Origin: Pseudomonas benzenivorans
GTDB taxonomy: Bacteria; Pseudomonadota; Gammaproteobacteria; Pseudomonadales; Pseudomonadaceae
Length of the DNA: 64,000 nt
Assembly: GCF_033547155.1 (NCBI RefSeq)
Contig: NZ_CP137892.1
Location: forward strand, 1,922,001-1,986,000
Reading direction: 5' to 3'
Shown here: one piece after another, positions 1-4,382 of the stretch
Numbering within the stretch: the first letter of the stretch is position 1
How the letters are laid out: each line of letters begins with the position of its first letter
The notes under the pieces: generated by a model
Seen by the model: only the letters and a program-made list of their open reading frames with translations
The model's database searches: none
What the model was told of the DNA's origin: nothing
Made by a program: the position numbers and the translations under genes

Positions 1-1209
1 GGCGCGTTGTTCTTCGAGGTCGATGTGGCGCAGGCGCGCCTCGATCAGCTCGCGGCGGGCTTCGAGCACTTGGTCCAGCTCGCCGCTGCCGGCGCGGTAG
101 CCGGCCAGGGACAGCGCCTGCTTCTGCGTGGCCAGCGGCAGCAGGCTGTCCTGGCTGCGCTGCACGGCGCGGTGCAGGCGCCGGTAGTCGGCCAGGTCCG
201 TGGCCAGCTGCGCGGCATGCTCGCGTTCCAGTGCTTCGCGTTCGGCCTGCACGCGGCTCAGTTCGGCGTGGCGGGCGGCGATCCTGGGGTTCTGCCGGGA
301 GCCCGGGAACAGCGGCAGGTCGACGCTCAGCTGCAGGCTGACCATGTCGCCGAACTCGCGGCCGCGGCGCTGATAGCCCAGCTCCCAGCTCCAGTCCGGG
401 CGCTTGTCGGCCACGGCCTCGCGTACCCTGGCCTCGGCCTCCTCGGTCATGGGCGCGAAGGCGCTCAGTTCCGGGTGGCGCTGCAGCCGGTCCTGGTAAT
501 GCCGGGCGTCGACCGCCCAGTGGGGCAGGCGCCCCTGGGGCGTGCGTTCGGCCGCCTCGCCGATCCAGCGGCGCAGGGTCGCCCGCTGCCGGGCCTGGGT
601 GCTGAGCAGCTGATCCTCCTGTTCGGCCAGCAGGGCCGCCTCCTGCTTCGGCGCCACGCTGTCGGCCGCCTGGCCGCGGCCGCCGGCGATGCGCGCCTGC
701 ACCGCCTTGGCCAGCAGGCGGTTCTCGGCGTAGAGGCTGGCGAACAGTGCGAGCTTCTGTTCGACGGCCAGGGCCGAGATCCAGGCCAGGGCGGTTTCCC
801 GCCTGACCCTGAGGCGCTCGACCTCCAGCTCGGCGTCGGCGCGCCGCAGGCCGGCTTGGGCGACATCGACCCGCGCCTGGCGCTTGGCCCGGTTGGGCAC
901 CTCCTGCATGAAGCCGACCATCTGCATGGTCATGGGCTCGCGATCCAGGCGGGCGCGGTCGTCGCCCTCGATGGGCACGTTCTGCAGGCCGAGCCGCAGC
1001 TTGGGGTCCGGCAGTTCGCCGGCGGGGATGGCGGCGTGGCGGGCGGCCTCGACGCCGGCCGCCTCGGCGGCCAGGGAGGGGGCCTGGCGTTCGGCCAGTT
1101 CGAGCGCTTCATCCAGGCTCAGGGCGACCGCCCAGGTCGGCAGGGCCAGCAGGCAGGCCACCAGCGCGGCCAGGCAGACGCGCCCGTTGGGGGAACGAGG
1201 TGATCTCAT
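1..1209 (-). CDS. TolC-family outer membrane efflux protein (CzcC/CusC type), C-terminus outside window
   Basis: The reading frame starts at an ATG at 1209 and stays open to the window edge, so about 403 residues are seen and the end is missing. The start reads MRSPRSPNGRVC followed by a hydrophobic stretch ending LPTWAVA, which looks like a Sec signal peptide. Two outer-membrane-efflux repeats follow, with long Ala/Glu/Arg-rich heptads typical of the coiled-coil barrel of this family. The segment SLDEALELAERQAPSL is the usual start of such a domain. In this family the protein is the outer membrane channel of a tripartite RND metal exporter. It is the last visible gene of the minus-strand run that starts with the bufferin genes, 100 bp after a Cys/Met-rich small protein, so copper or a similar metal is the likely cargo. 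That substrate is inferred from context only. Confidence 0.85.
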   Translation of the reverse strand, partial: MRSPRSPNGRVCLAALVACLLALPTWAVALSLDEALELAERQAPSLAAEAAGVEAARHAAIPAGELPDPKLRLGLQNVPIEGDDRARLDREPMTMQMVGFMQEVPNRAKRQARVDVAQAGLRRADAELEVERLRVRRETALAWISALAVEQKLALFASLYAENRLLAKAVQARIAGGRGQAADSVAPKQEAALLAEQEDQLLSTQARQRATLRRWIGEAAERTPQGRLPHWAVDARHYQDRLQRHPELSAFAPMTEEAEARVREAVADKRPDWSWELGYQRRGREFGDMVSLQLSVDLPLFPGSRQNPRIAARHAELSRVQAEREALEREHAAQLATDLADYRRLHRAVQRSQDSLLPLATQKQALSLAGYRAGSGELDQVLEARRELIEARLRHIDLEEQRA

Positions 1210-1309
1210 GTTTGCGACTTCCAGCGATGATCCAGCGCCGCCCGACGGGCAGGCGCACAGGCCGCTGCGCCTGTCAGGGCGTGCAGCGGCGTTCAGGACA
1301 TGACGGGAG

Positions 1310-1651
1310 TCAGGCGCGGGGAGGGCGCCAGAGGCCTTCGGGGGTCGGGGAAGGAATGAAGTCGCCGTAGCGCGCCAGCAACGGGGTGCCGGCCAGGCGC
1401 AGCAGCGGCTTGCCTATCGTCACCTGCAACAGGCTGCCGCCCTGGCACTGCTGGCCGCTCTTGCACAGCTTGCCGCCACTCCGTTCGCCCATCTGCGCAG
1501 CGCAGCAGTCTTCGGCCGAATCCATGGCCATCCCCTCGTGCTGGGCAGCCATGGGGCACGGCCCGGCCTGCACGGCCAGCGCCGCCAGCCCGTTGAGGGG
1601 CAGCGCGAGGCACAGCAGCAGGCAGAGGAGCAGGCGAACGGGGGCGGTCAT
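1310..1651 (-). CDS. Small secreted Cys/Met/His-rich protein, putative metal-binding
   Basis: A 113-residue protein with a clear N-terminal signal peptide (hydrophobic core LLLCLLLCLALPLNGLAAL). The mature part opens with CPMAAQHEGMAMDSAEDCC and has further Cys residues near GGKLCKSGQQCQGG, giving many soft-metal ligands in a short span. The tail PTPEGLWRPPRA resembles the short DUF2946-like proteins often found beside copper efflux genes; that family link is from memory and uncertain. It lies 21 bp downstream of the DoxX gene and 100 bp upstream of the efflux gene on the same strand, so it is probably co-transcribed. A periplasmic metal chaperone or sensor role is inference. Confidence 0.7.
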   Translation of the reverse strand: MTAPVRLLLCLLLCLALPLNGLAALAVQAGPCPMAAQHEGMAMDSAEDCCAAQMGERSGGKLCKSGQQCQGGSLLQVTIGKPLLRLAGTPLLARYGDFIPSPTPEGLWRPPRA

Positions 1652-1672
1652 TGCGGCTTCTGGCGTGAAGGG

Positions 1673-2182
1673 TCAGCGATTATAACCATAGTGCCGGGCA
1701 ATGAAGTGGTCGAGCGACAGCGCCCCGGGGCCCTTGGCCGCCAGCATCAGCAACACGGCCGCCCAGACCCCATGGGTCGGGTAGGCGCCCGGGTAGACGA
1801 ACAGCTGAATCACCAGGGTCATGCCGACCAGGGCCAGGGCGGAGAAGCGGGTGGCCAGGCCGAGCAGGATCAGCAGCGGAAACAGGTGCTCGGCGAAGGC
1901 CGCCATGGACGCGGCCAACTCCGGCGGCAGCAGCGGCACCTGGTACTCGTGTTCGAACAACGGCACGGCCGAGGCGGAGAGCTTGGGCAGGCCGAACTCG
2001 AAGCTGCCTTCGACCAGGTCGATGGCCAACCCCTCGATCTTGGTCTGCCCGGACTTCCAGAACACCGCGGCGATGGAGAAGCGGCCGAGGAAGGCCACCA
2101 GGCCGTAGGGAATCAGCTTGCACAGCTCGATTGCCCAGGCGATCAGGCGAACGGGAGCGGCGGCGTGGGCGGGATTGCTCAT
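1673..2182 (-). CDS. bufD: DoxX-family membrane protein of the bufferin operon
   Basis: About 169 residues with four predicted membrane segments; the core AFLGRFSIAAVFWKSGQTKI and the later AAFAEHLFPLLILLGLATRF are typical of DoxX/DoxD proteins. The ATG at 2182 (MSNPAHA) is chosen over the one at 2188 because AAGGA then sits about 8 nt upstream, and this start overlaps the stop of the bufC gene. DoxX proteins are regular members of bufferin operons (called BufD there), where their exact job is not settled; redox or membrane support of peptide maturation has been suggested. The order bufA-bufB-bufC-doxX on one strand supports the call. Confidence 0.8.
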   Translation of the reverse strand: MSNPAHAAAPVRLIAWAIELCKLIPYGLVAFLGRFSIAAVFWKSGQTKIEGLAIDLVEGSFEFGLPKLSASAVPLFEHEYQVPLLPPELAASMAAFAEHLFPLLILLGLATRFSALALVGMTLVIQLFVYPGAYPTHGVWAAVLLMLAAKGPGALSLDHFIARHYGYNR

Positions 2183-2958
2183 GGGCATTGTCCTTGGTTG
2201 TCGTAAGCAAACTGGATGATGGCGCCGCTGCCGAGCAGATGGCTCAGGCAGCGGGCGGGGTCGAATTCGGCGTCGCGGGCCAGGGCGCGCTCCGCGGCTT
2301 GCCCCAGGGGCTGTCCCTGCTGCAGGCTCTGGATGAACCGGGCGTCGCCCGGGCGGATGCCGAGTACCTCCACCTCCAGTCCTCGGCGCTGCACCAGGGC
2401 GCACTCGGCCTGGAGAGGGTCGAAGCCGGCGAGCGGCCGCTCGTCCTGATGGGCGGCCCAGAGCGAGACCACGGCGAAGGCCGAGTCGAGCACGCCGAGG
2501 GCCGGATGCAGCTGGAAGCACAGGGCGCCGACGCGCTCCGGCGTGGCCAGGGCGGTGGCCAGCGCGTCGCTGGCCACGGGGCCTGCGTCGGCGGCGTGGT
2601 AAGCCTCGATGCGCAGCAGCTCCAGGCGCGCCATGTCCGCCAGATAGGGCAGGCTGGCGGCGGGGGCGAAGCCTTCGATGAAGGCCGGGAAGCCGGCGCC
2701 GTAGTGAGCCAGCAGGCGCGAGCGCGGTGGCGAGTTGCGCACATGCACCGCGGCCATGGCGCGGAAGAAGTTCTCGCCCACCAGTTGCTGGACCACCGGG
2801 AAACTGGCGGCCAGGGCATCGATCAGGGAGCTGAGCACGTTGTTGCGATAGACGGCGAAACGTTTCGCCGGGTCGGAGCCGTTCCAGGCCCGCAGCTGCG
2901 CCGGGCATTCCAGCTCGGGGTCGAGCAGGGCGACGGCGAAGCGCTGTTGCAGGCTCAT
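2179..2958 (-). CDS. bufC: BufC/HvfC-type partner protein (DUF2063, 'putative DNA-binding domain')
   Basis: A 259-residue protein starting [15 protein letters not shown] at the ATG at 2958. The N-terminal part contains [23 protein letters not shown] and [13 protein letters not shown], the signature stretch of DUF2063 proteins. Although databases call this a DNA-binding domain, in the bufferin and related systems the protein partners the DUF692 enzyme and helps it act on the precursor peptide. The start overlaps the stop of the bufB gene by 4 bp and its own stop overlaps the doxX start, so translation is likely coupled through three genes. A longer in-frame upstream extension exists but would lie inside bufB and has no support. 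Confidence 0.88.
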
Positions 2959-3857
2959 GCGTGCACCTGCTGCCTGGCGGGCCGACAGGCATCGAGCAGC
3001 GCCTGCGCCCGCTGCGCCTCCTCCACCAGCACGGCCAGGGCGGGCACGGCATTGTCCCGTTCGAGCAGGGTCGGGCAGGGGCCGATCAGCTGCAGGGCAT
3101 CTTGGTAGAGTCGCCACACGGCATCGTCGACCGGCGCGCCGTGGTTGTCGATCAGCAGGCGGTCGCCTGCCGCGTCGCGGTCTTCGGCGAAACCGGCCAG
3201 ATGGATCTCGCCGACCGCGTCCAGCGGCAGGGCACGCAAGTAGGCCTGGGCATCCCAGTGATGGTTGATGCAGGACACATAGATGTTGTTGACGTCCAGC
3301 AACAGGCCGCAGCCGGTGCGGCGGACGACCTCGCCGATGAAGCTGGCTTCGTCCAGGGTCGAGCCGGCGAACTCCAGGTAGGTCGCCGGATTCTCCAGCA
3401 GCATCTGGCGCTGCAGACGGCTCTGCACCTGATCGACGTGGGCGCAGACCCGGTCGAGGGTCACGTCGTCGTAGCAGATGGGCAGCAGGTCGTTGAGGAA
3501 CACCTCGCCGTGGCTGGACCAGGCCAGGTGTTCGGAAAAGGCGTGGGGCTGGTAGCGCTCCAGCAAGGCGGCCAGGCGCTCGAGGTGCTCGCCGTCGAGT
3601 GGCTGCTCGCCGCCGATGGACAGGCCGACGCCATGGACCGACAGGGCATAGCGCTCGCGGATCTGGCTCAGGTAGTGATGGAAGGGGCCGCCGGCGACCA
3701 TGTAATTCTCGGCATGCACTTCGAAGAAGCCCACCGCCGGGTCACTGGCGAGGATGTCCTCGAAGTGCTGCGACTTGAGGCTGACCCCGGCCCGGCTGGG
3801 AAGCGCGGGCCGAAGCGCAGGAGCGCTGCTGACGAGGGGATGGGGGGTAGGGGTCAT
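2955..3857 (-). CDS. bufB: BufB, DUF692 multinuclear non-heme iron oxidase (MNIO) that modifies bufferin cysteines
   Basis: A 300-residue TIM-barrel protein of the DUF692/MNIO family. Visible metal-ligand motifs include [41 protein letters not shown] and DNHGAPV, all hallmarks of the family. MNIO enzymes use two or three iron ions to oxidise Cys residues of a partner peptide, in bufferins to thiooxazole groups. The ATG at 3857 is chosen because AGGAG lies 8 nt upstream; a TTG codon just before it is less likely. It follows the precursor peptide gene by 22 bp and overlaps bufC by 4 bp. The product is expected to act in the cytoplasm before export of the peptide. Confidence 0.9.
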
Positions 3858-3879
3858 CAACAGCGCTCCTGCTCGCGGG

Positions 3880-4188
3880 TCAGGATTTCACTTCTTCGAA
3901 GGCCTCGAGCTGGCCGAAGCCGGTCGGCGAAGTCGGCGAGGCGATTTCCTTGCAGGTACCCTCGGGCACGAACTTCCAGGCATTGCCCTGGTAGTCGCTC
4001 TTCGCGGTGCCGGCGCAGGTGGTGCCGGGGCCGGCGGCGCAGTCGTTCTTGCCTTTCATGGCTACGCCGTAGCACTTCTCGTTGTCCGCCGCCTGGGCGG
4101 TGAGCGGGGCGCTGGAGATCGCCAGGGCTGCCCCCAGGGCAAGGGCGAGACCGGCGGCCGAAACAGCATGGGAAGCAGTGGTTTTCAT
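3880..4188 (-). CDS. bufA: BufA1-type bufferin precursor peptide (DUF2282)
   Basis: A 102-residue precursor. The first about 38 residues ([19 protein letters not shown]... ending TAQAAD) form a long Sec-type signal. The core has the DUF2282 pattern [14 protein letters not shown], then GTTCAG, then [11 protein letters not shown], giving the four conserved cysteines of BufA1 bufferins. In characterised bufferins the inner cysteines are oxidised by BufB and the exported peptide binds copper in the periplasm. The ATG at 4188 is preferred to one at 4203 because GGAG lies 9 nt upstream, while the earlier one lacks a ribosome site. It is the first gene of the minus-strand operon and has an ECF-like promoter upstream. 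Confidence 0.9.
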
Positions 4189-4353: not shown

Positions 4354-4382
4354 TCAGACGGACGGTATCGGCTTTTGTTACA
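4354..4382 (-). promoter_or_regulatory. ECF-sigma-like promoter of the bufferin operon
   Basis: On the minus strand the sequence reads TGTAACA (4382-4376), a 15-nt spacer, then CGTCTGA (4360-4354). An AAC-containing -35 with a CGTC -10 at this spacing is the classic ECF sigma layout. It would give a leader of roughly 160 nt before bufA. Bufferin-type operons in other bacteria are known to be under ECF sigma control. No sigma gene is visible in the window. Confidence 0.55.

Follow-up and report, generated by a model that had tools for sequence, protein, structure and literature searches.

A bufferin operon continued by a CutF-like leader gene and a Cus-type copper pump in Pseudomonas benzenivorans

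We analysed a stretch of 64,000 nucleotides (nt) from Pseudomonas benzenivorans (assembly GCF_033547155.1, contig NZ_CP137892.1, positions 1,922,001 to 1,986,000), here called the window, and studied the minus-strand gene run at its left end, where a bufferin operon (bufA1-bufB-bufC-doxX) is followed by a small exported gene, called the leader gene below, and by a copper pump of the Cus type. Gene content, spacing and comparison with related genomes make it fairly likely that bufA1-bufB-bufC-doxX-cutF-like-cusC-cusB(F)-cusA is one eight-gene operon that would buffer periplasmic Cu(I) and then export it. Bufferins bind copper in the periplasm. A gene run that unites bufferin and Cus offers a natural construct for studying buffer-to-pump transfer. 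In Cupriavidus metallidurans, the bufferin-type Gig supports Cus genetically, though the two are separate determinants (PMC10304878; here and below, statements on cited papers refer to the parts of them consulted). Our search of the open-licence literature, outside which most subscription papers lie, gave no paper joining bufferin with CusA, or joining multinuclear non-heme iron-dependent oxidases (MNIO) with resistance-nodulation-division (RND) efflux, copper and ribosomally synthesized and post-translationally modified peptides. In the literature searched, we found no operon that unites bufferin and Cus genes and in which the pump has come under control of the bufferin promoter; all its parts are of known kinds.

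Two copper modules in one gene run

Reading from right to left from a GAPDH gene, the window holds six genes of the run, bufA1, bufB, bufC, doxX, the leader gene and a channel gene (Table 1), all of them in the order, on the strand and at the short gaps claimed by the initial annotation. In the bufferin half, 22 nt separate bufA1 from bufB, and the bufB-bufC and bufC-doxX pairs overlap by 4 nt; doxX lies 21 nt from the leader gene and the leader gene 100 nt from cusC. The channel gene is cut at the window edge and is 417 amino acids (aa) long in the genome, where cusB and cusA follow with overlaps of 1 nt (cusC-cusB) and 4 nt (cusB-cusA). Further left, beyond the window, the run ends at a convergent gene that we take to be arfB. 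The initial annotation had proposed an extension into efflux and had pointed leftwards for RND and membrane-fusion genes, and both are borne out by the genome: as a complete cusC-cusB(F)-cusA set lies downstream, the operon contains a whole copper pump and not a channel alone.

The bufferin half has the composition of a bufferin-1 operon, with a DUF2282 precursor carrying a Sec signal (judged by eye) and four Cys, a BufB-family MNIO, a DUF2063 partner and DoxX. BufB, searched with its start one codon earlier than in Table 1, reached 385.7 bits with the NCBIfam model NF050167 'bufferin maturase', whose cut-off is 310 bits, and its MNIO motifs align with those of the solved MNIO 3BWW, including what we take to be the metal-binding residues. 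The claim of a bufferin operon, based initially on the four BufA Cys and the MNIO motifs, was therefore supported by PF10048, NF050167, PF05114, PF09836, PF07681 and the 3BWW alignment. By analogy with the family, we infer that BufBC would convert two Cys of BufA1 to thiooxazoles and that the exported peptide would chelate copper. The same four genes stand in the same order in the published bufferin-1 operon (bufA1BC-doxX; gigPABT in C. metallidurans). That core, in the descriptions consulted, stops at doxX (gig at gigT), whereas in the window operon the pump module comes closely behind on the same strand. A survey of bufferin clusters reports further conserved genes 'in extremely low proportions' (PMC12452194), and a term search of its main text did not return the words efflux, RND or TolC.

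Regarding the pump, CusA matched TIGR00914 with 1381 bits and, among solved structures, was closest to E. coli CusA (1609 bits). The alignment keeps three Met of E. coli CusA, 573, 623 and 672, which we take to be those of its Cu(I) site. CusB carries PF16576, PF16572 and PF11604 together, with the CusF domain fused at the C-terminus, and scores below the cut-off of the NCBIfam CusB subfamily (332.8 vs 390). The channel matches PF02321, so the outer membrane efflux protein family stated by the initial annotation stands; its CzcC/CusC type does not follow from the models, since the protein is far below the cut-off of both NCBIfam models touched and reached no named channel model, and we call it CusC by context. 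Judged by its sequence, the pump is a full RND system for Cu(I)/Ag(I) and, as in its family, CusCBA with the built-in CusF domain would export Cu(I).

Table 1. Features of the bufferin-Cus gene run of P. benzenivorans (window positions unless a locus is named)
Feature	Position	Strand or place	Evidence
ECF-type promoter TGTAAC-N16-CGTCT	4356..4382	(-)	upstream of bufA1; weight matrix score 15.4
bufA1, bufferin-1 precursor	3880..4188	(-)	PF10048/DUF2282 E 5e-25; four Cys in mature part
bufB, MNIO maturase	2955..3857	(-)	PF05114; NF050167 385.7 bits; aligned to 3BWW
bufC, DUF2063/RRE partner of maturase	2179..2958	(-)	PF09836 E 1e-27
doxX	1673..2182	(-)	PF07681 E 7e-16
CutF-like exported leader gene (cutF/cusD-like), 113 aa, end WRPPRA-stop	1310..1651	(-)	
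Predicted regulatory RNA, leader stop codon to cusC start	1195..1312	(-)	36-sequence covariation; own fold
cusC-like outer membrane channel, 5' part	1..1209	(-)	PF02321 E 6e-33; gene end G000:C1:1921956
cusB	L003:12481-13956, outside window	after cusC	491 aa, C-terminal CusF domain
cusA	L003:9320-12484, outside window	after cusB	1054 aa

Linkage and transcription of the two modules

Bufferin and Cus genes were found linked in at least five Pseudomonas genomes. Among 59 genomes, 38 have a DUF2282 bufferin gene and there are 30 places with a CusA of at least 75% identity, the two adjoining in only 3; the search for the leader in 398 genomes added two linked genomes, G138 and G241. Where the places of leader and bufA1 were compared (49 genomes, taken from part of the match lists), five were linked. 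BufB matched 63 named loci, and among the matches listed the linked order occurs in one, Pseudomonas marincola JCM 14761. In five relatives (Pseudomonas sp. CC6-YY-74, P. tumuqii, P. borbori, sp1636 and P. aestuarii) the GAPDH gene (gap) precedes bufA1BC-doxX and arfB follows without a pump at this spot; three of these relatives have a convergent LysR gene that separates doxX from arfB. The small gene and cusCBA lie between doxX and arfB in P. benzenivorans, G138 and G241, and in the last two a LysR gene lies between cusA and arfB. In genome G041 and in P. marincola, the linked genes are found elsewhere on the chromosome.

The five linked CusA proteins fall, with one unlinked CusA, in a group of six in the CusA tree (97/97). 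In the bufBC-doxX tree the linked loci form two separate, well-supported groups, so that the linked state needs two changes and the same join may have arisen twice. The host tree, with a clade support of 34/0, is too weak to choose between gain in the clade of the window and loss in its relatives; as read from these trees, gain in each group and one old join with losses would both fit.

Unlinked leaders gave a point of comparison for transcription. A sigma70-like site, TTGTA-N16-19-TA[CGA][AT][CA]T, lies 36-37 nt before the leader in 16 of 40 unlinked loci, with 0.02 in shuffles and with a pattern that was drawn up after inspecting some of the scored sequences, and in none of the five linked loci. 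The stop of doxX is 17 to 28 nt from the leader start in these five (21 in the window, 20 in G138, 28 in G241, 20 in G041 and 17 in P. marincola). Between the start of cusC and a point beyond bufA1, we saw no sigma70-type promoter and no gene-strand terminator in the window's operon; the separate promoters for the last two genes that would have spoken against the initial proposal were thus not seen between the two halves, nor was a minus-strand terminator. Because the sigma70-like pattern is absent, no terminator was found and the gap after doxX is short, the operon is probably read as one transcript from the bufA1 promoter through cusA. Weighing on the other side, 24 of the 40 unlinked leaders likewise have no sigma70-like pattern, and a TATAAT within the last codons of doxX could serve as a weak internal promoter.

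One could argue that the modules are mere neighbours, the cus module having come to lie behind doxX by chance, with a promoter of its own in doxX or in the gap and with no link between buffering and export. The rarity of the linkage, the relatives with the buf operon alone at this spot, the TATAAT and the different chromosomal places of the two linked groups would all fit such an origin. It is harder to reconcile with the short doxX-leader gap in every linked locus, the absence of the promoter pattern in all five, the terminator not found in the window's operon and a buf tree in which the join may have arisen twice, and we consider it quite unlikely.

Bufferin genes were also seen in other settings. 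In Microbulbifer halophilus (L150), bufB-bufC-doxX is flanked on either side by an RND-type cusA-like gene, and the DUF2282 gene comes after doxX. Conjugative plasmids of E. coli (IncFIA; L256:7595-10099) and Salmonella (IncC; L257:8592-11079) carry bufA1BC-doxX, and BufB matches turned up in 73 Escherichia plasmid records.

The leader protein and the RNA before cusC

The initial annotation had described the small protein as secreted and rich in Cys, Met and His. Its mature part has five Cys and four Met and the whole protein is Cys/Met-rich, but it holds a single His, so the His-rich part of that description was not upheld. No Pfam or NCBIfam model scored above its cut-off with this protein, and DUF2946 gave no match in a Pfam listing to E 1, where the HMMER filters drop most weak matches. 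The C-terminal WRPPR, plus 1-2 residues, is present in 44 of 44 distinct leader homologues, which also share a signal-like N-terminus, a CC pair and, mostly, PCPM and CKxGQxC. These 44 come from 55 loci that had been selected for close similarity to the leader or the CusA of the window, and this selection may exaggerate the constancy of leader and gap sequences. A leader homologue was found in 159 of 398 genomes of the genus. Since cusC is the next gene in 47 of the 49 mapped loci with a leader (several per genome in some cases; one of the two exceptions stops at a contig end), we assign the leader to the pump module and not to the bufferin module.

CutF-like genes have been defined in PMC9973294, and the leader has the features listed there: a short protein with a putative signal peptide (by eye), a PP motif at most 15 residues from the end and a next gene on the same strand. 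The copper motif CxxxC is missing, with CC and CxxxxxC in its place, and for this reason we use 'CutF-like' and not CutF, although the CutF authors allow variant Cys motifs. In Rhodobacter capsulatus, CutF ends in PEPEGPPPRL and is exported during its synthesis, and together with a downstream stem-loop it makes translation of cutO copper-dependent (PMC8456105, PMC9973294). The commonest neighbours of CutF-like genes are outer membrane efflux protein channels of RND pumps, and CusD is labelled in the network (PMC9973294). In cusDCBAF of C. metallidurans, cusD alone is expressed without added metal (PMC10304878), which fits leader-type behaviour.

The window's gene resembles these systems in several respects. 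As in cusDCBAF and in the CutF-like leaders before CusC/CzcC/SilC, a small exported Cys/Met protein stands immediately before cusC; unlike here, where it lies behind doxX, the cus determinant of C. metallidurans stands alone. With cutFOG it shares an exported leader that ends in a Pro-rich stretch (PTPEGLWRPPRA in the window's gene, PEPEGPPPRL in CutF) and a predicted fold masking the ribosome site of the next gene, but cutFOG governs a multicopper oxidase and has no bufferin, whereas the window's leader precedes a pump. A covarying RNA fold before cusC, as present here, is not described in the main-text sections of PMC9973294 that cover CutF-like genes. Our search for WRPPR in the open-licence literature matched, by title, only antimicrobial peptides and milk proteins.

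The gap between leader and cusC measures 95-109 nt in most loci and 75-89 nt in six. From 42 distinct gap sequences, 36 were aligned (L094, L095, L096, L097, L098 and L124 were shorter or too divergent), and RNAalifold, unprompted, gave a fold whose outer helix pairs the stop-codon side with ACAGGAATC, where the cusC ribosome site lies, and encloses two hairpins. In a 24-pair version of this fold, 93.9% of cells were paired, compared with 37-57% in slid controls and 88.5% in partner-shuffled ones. Two-sided changes were seen in 33 cells of 10 of the 24 pairs, all of them within the two hairpins. The window's own sequence folds at -52.6 kcal/mol (z -2.2) and forms the outer helix with one extra base. 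An Rfam scan of the operon returned 0 matches up to E 1.

Some of these data count against a ribosome-site gate. Slid controls also reach 4-13 cells with two-sided changes in 4-8 pairs, and the outer helix, being nearly constant in sequence, shows zero two-sided covariation. The z of the window's own fold was equalled by 6 of 200 shuffles. Besides, plain folding of G138, G241 and some unlinked loci (L091, L108) gives no outer helix. Masking of the next gene's ribosome site is thus predicted for the family, but the lowest folds of these two linked genomes lack it, and the translational gate may be relaxed in the linked clade. Taking the alignment as a whole, the predicted fold usually hides the cusC ribosome site.

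It has also to be considered that the small protein could serve as a periplasmic copper chaperone passing Cu(I) on from BufA1 to the pump; a role of this kind was once proposed for CusD and CutF (PMC8456105, PMC10304878). Its Sec signal and the Cys and Met of its mature part would suit that role. The most constant part of the leader, however, is its last residues before the stop codon, followed by covarying RNA, and CutF works through its own translation and export, is rapidly degraded in the periplasm and does not act in trans (PMC9973294). A chaperone role thus seems doubtful to us, and the small protein is most likely a CutF-like leader peptide that gates cusC translation and not a copper carrier.

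If the leader acts in this manner, sequence and RNA covariation predict a default state in which the cusC ribosome site stays base-paired within the downstream fold when ribosomes finish the leader. Binding of periplasmic copper by the exported nascent chain would let the WRPPR end slow the ribosome, upon which the outer helix would open and the pump would be made. Buffer and pump would then share one transcript, the pump alone having a second, copper-dependent translational gate. We infer such copper-dependent translation, together with sigma control and transfer from BufA1 to the pump, from the sequences compared here. A more integrated version, in which matured BufA1 donates copper to CusCBA via the CusF domain on CusB, the leader reads the free Cu(I) left once BufA1 is saturated and the pump is made only when the buffer is full, with the operons joined and the pump promoter lost at least twice, or inherited and lost, is one that we put forward tentatively and think unlikely as a whole. 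The leader, which has a constant WRPPR end and is followed by covarying RNA, is common enough to serve as a clean system for studying how copper may be sensed as a protein is translated, far beyond the few genomes in which it is linked to bufferin.

A candidate ECF-type promoter and its predicted regulon

Upstream of bufA1 lies a candidate promoter of the extracytoplasmic function (ECF) type. The pattern TGTAAC-N17-[CG]TCT occurs in 33 of 106 bufA1 upstream regions (shuffles expect 0.08) and in none of 41 leader upstream regions taken as unlinked, a set that included the window's own L002 (40 without it). A first, stricter pattern had matched 9 of the 106 before its spacing was corrected, and raw dyad counts were uninformative for motif discovery, swamped by GC-rich and coding words. 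With a weight matrix trained without G000 (P. benzenivorans), G138, G241 and G041, all other scored loci being in the training set, 99.9% of shuffles scored below 10.5; the window's promoter (15.4) and the sites of G138 and G041 were above this line.

Genome-wide, the pattern has 9 matches in P. benzenivorans and 2 in the reversed control. Six of the nine precede bufA1, both bufA2 genes, msrA, msrB-msrA2 and arsS, and the remaining three fall within or between genes unrelated to these. A scan of six further genomes gave 48 matches, 30 of them with a locus to inspect, and 14 of these 30 lie at most 500 nt before a gene of such kinds. The bufA2 genes belong to another MNIO locus of P. benzenivorans, L004:1-3513 (G000:C1:1-3513), with two bufA2-type precursors followed by MNIO and DUF2063-type genes (named by similarity), each precursor having a TGTAAC motif of its own in front.

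Published systems offer a precedent for this kind of control. Meningococcal (Neisseria) sigmaE and Haemophilus RpoE2 control a buf-type cluster plus msrAB (PMC3240639, PMC7907618), and Caulobacter sigmaF controls two buf clusters via GTAACC-N16-CGAA. All three are thus ECF sigma factors over buf-type operons, as we propose here, with msrAB in the first two only; the sigmaF motif has CGAA and not the CGTCT found before bufA1, and an RND copper pump, present in the window operon, is not mentioned in the published descriptions consulted. Judging by the motif and by the genes that share it, the sigma factor that reads the operon from TGTAAC-N16-CGTCT would be an ECF sigma like Neisseria sigmaE and Haemophilus RpoE2, and it would also serve bufA2 and the genes for methionine sulfoxide reductases.

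Small zf-HC2 anti-sigma genes accompany at least two of the sigma genes in P. benzenivorans. Of two related ECF sigmas, L211 and L208, the former occurs in 27 of the 28 genomes that have a buf operon of this type and in 6 of the 31 that lack one (Fisher 8e-10, relatedness uncorrected). On plasmid pAcX50e of Azotobacter chroococcum (L254:9600-14054), the run bufA1-bufB-bufC-doxX-sigma-zf-HC2 anti-sigma-msrP unites bufferin, ECF sigma and methionine sulfoxide repair at one place. Some observations sit uneasily with the proposed control. The site of G241, similar in position and sequence, scores below the 99.9% line; in four of the six further genomes, the reversed control gave at least as many matches as the motif; it is L208, a rarer sigma, and not L211 that is closest (72% identical) to the sigma within the Azotobacter operon; and a pattern scan found no such ECF promoter before that operon. 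A firm assignment to one sigma was rejected, as co-occurrence favours L211 and likeness to Azotobacter favours L208. An NrsF-type anti-sigma as sigma partner was rejected too, with zero PF06532 matches in the genome.

Because the sigma regulon includes methionine sulfoxide reductases, one might expect the operon to respond mainly to oxidative or hypochlorite stress, with copper secondary. The motif shared with msrA and msrB-msrA2, and the hypochlorite response governed by Haemophilus RpoE2 (PMC7907618), would agree with this. A pump and a Cu-type leader within the same gene run would not, and buf/gig operons are induced by copper in Cupriavidus and Legionella (PMC10304878, PMC5413113). We therefore hold a mainly oxidative response to be somewhat unlikely and retain copper buffering and export as the preferred reading.

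Finally, two observations concern the motif itself. The arsS gene, of the ArsS-type radical SAM kind (L206:495-1463), shares the bufferin/msr promoter motif, also in G041 and G093. Other kinds of bufA1 (L037, L039, L046, L065, L174, L180 and L182) have TGTAAC and then, at a similar distance, CGAA, as in the Caulobacter sigmaF site, and not CGTCT/CTCTA; bufferins might thus fall into two groups, each with a promoter class of its own.

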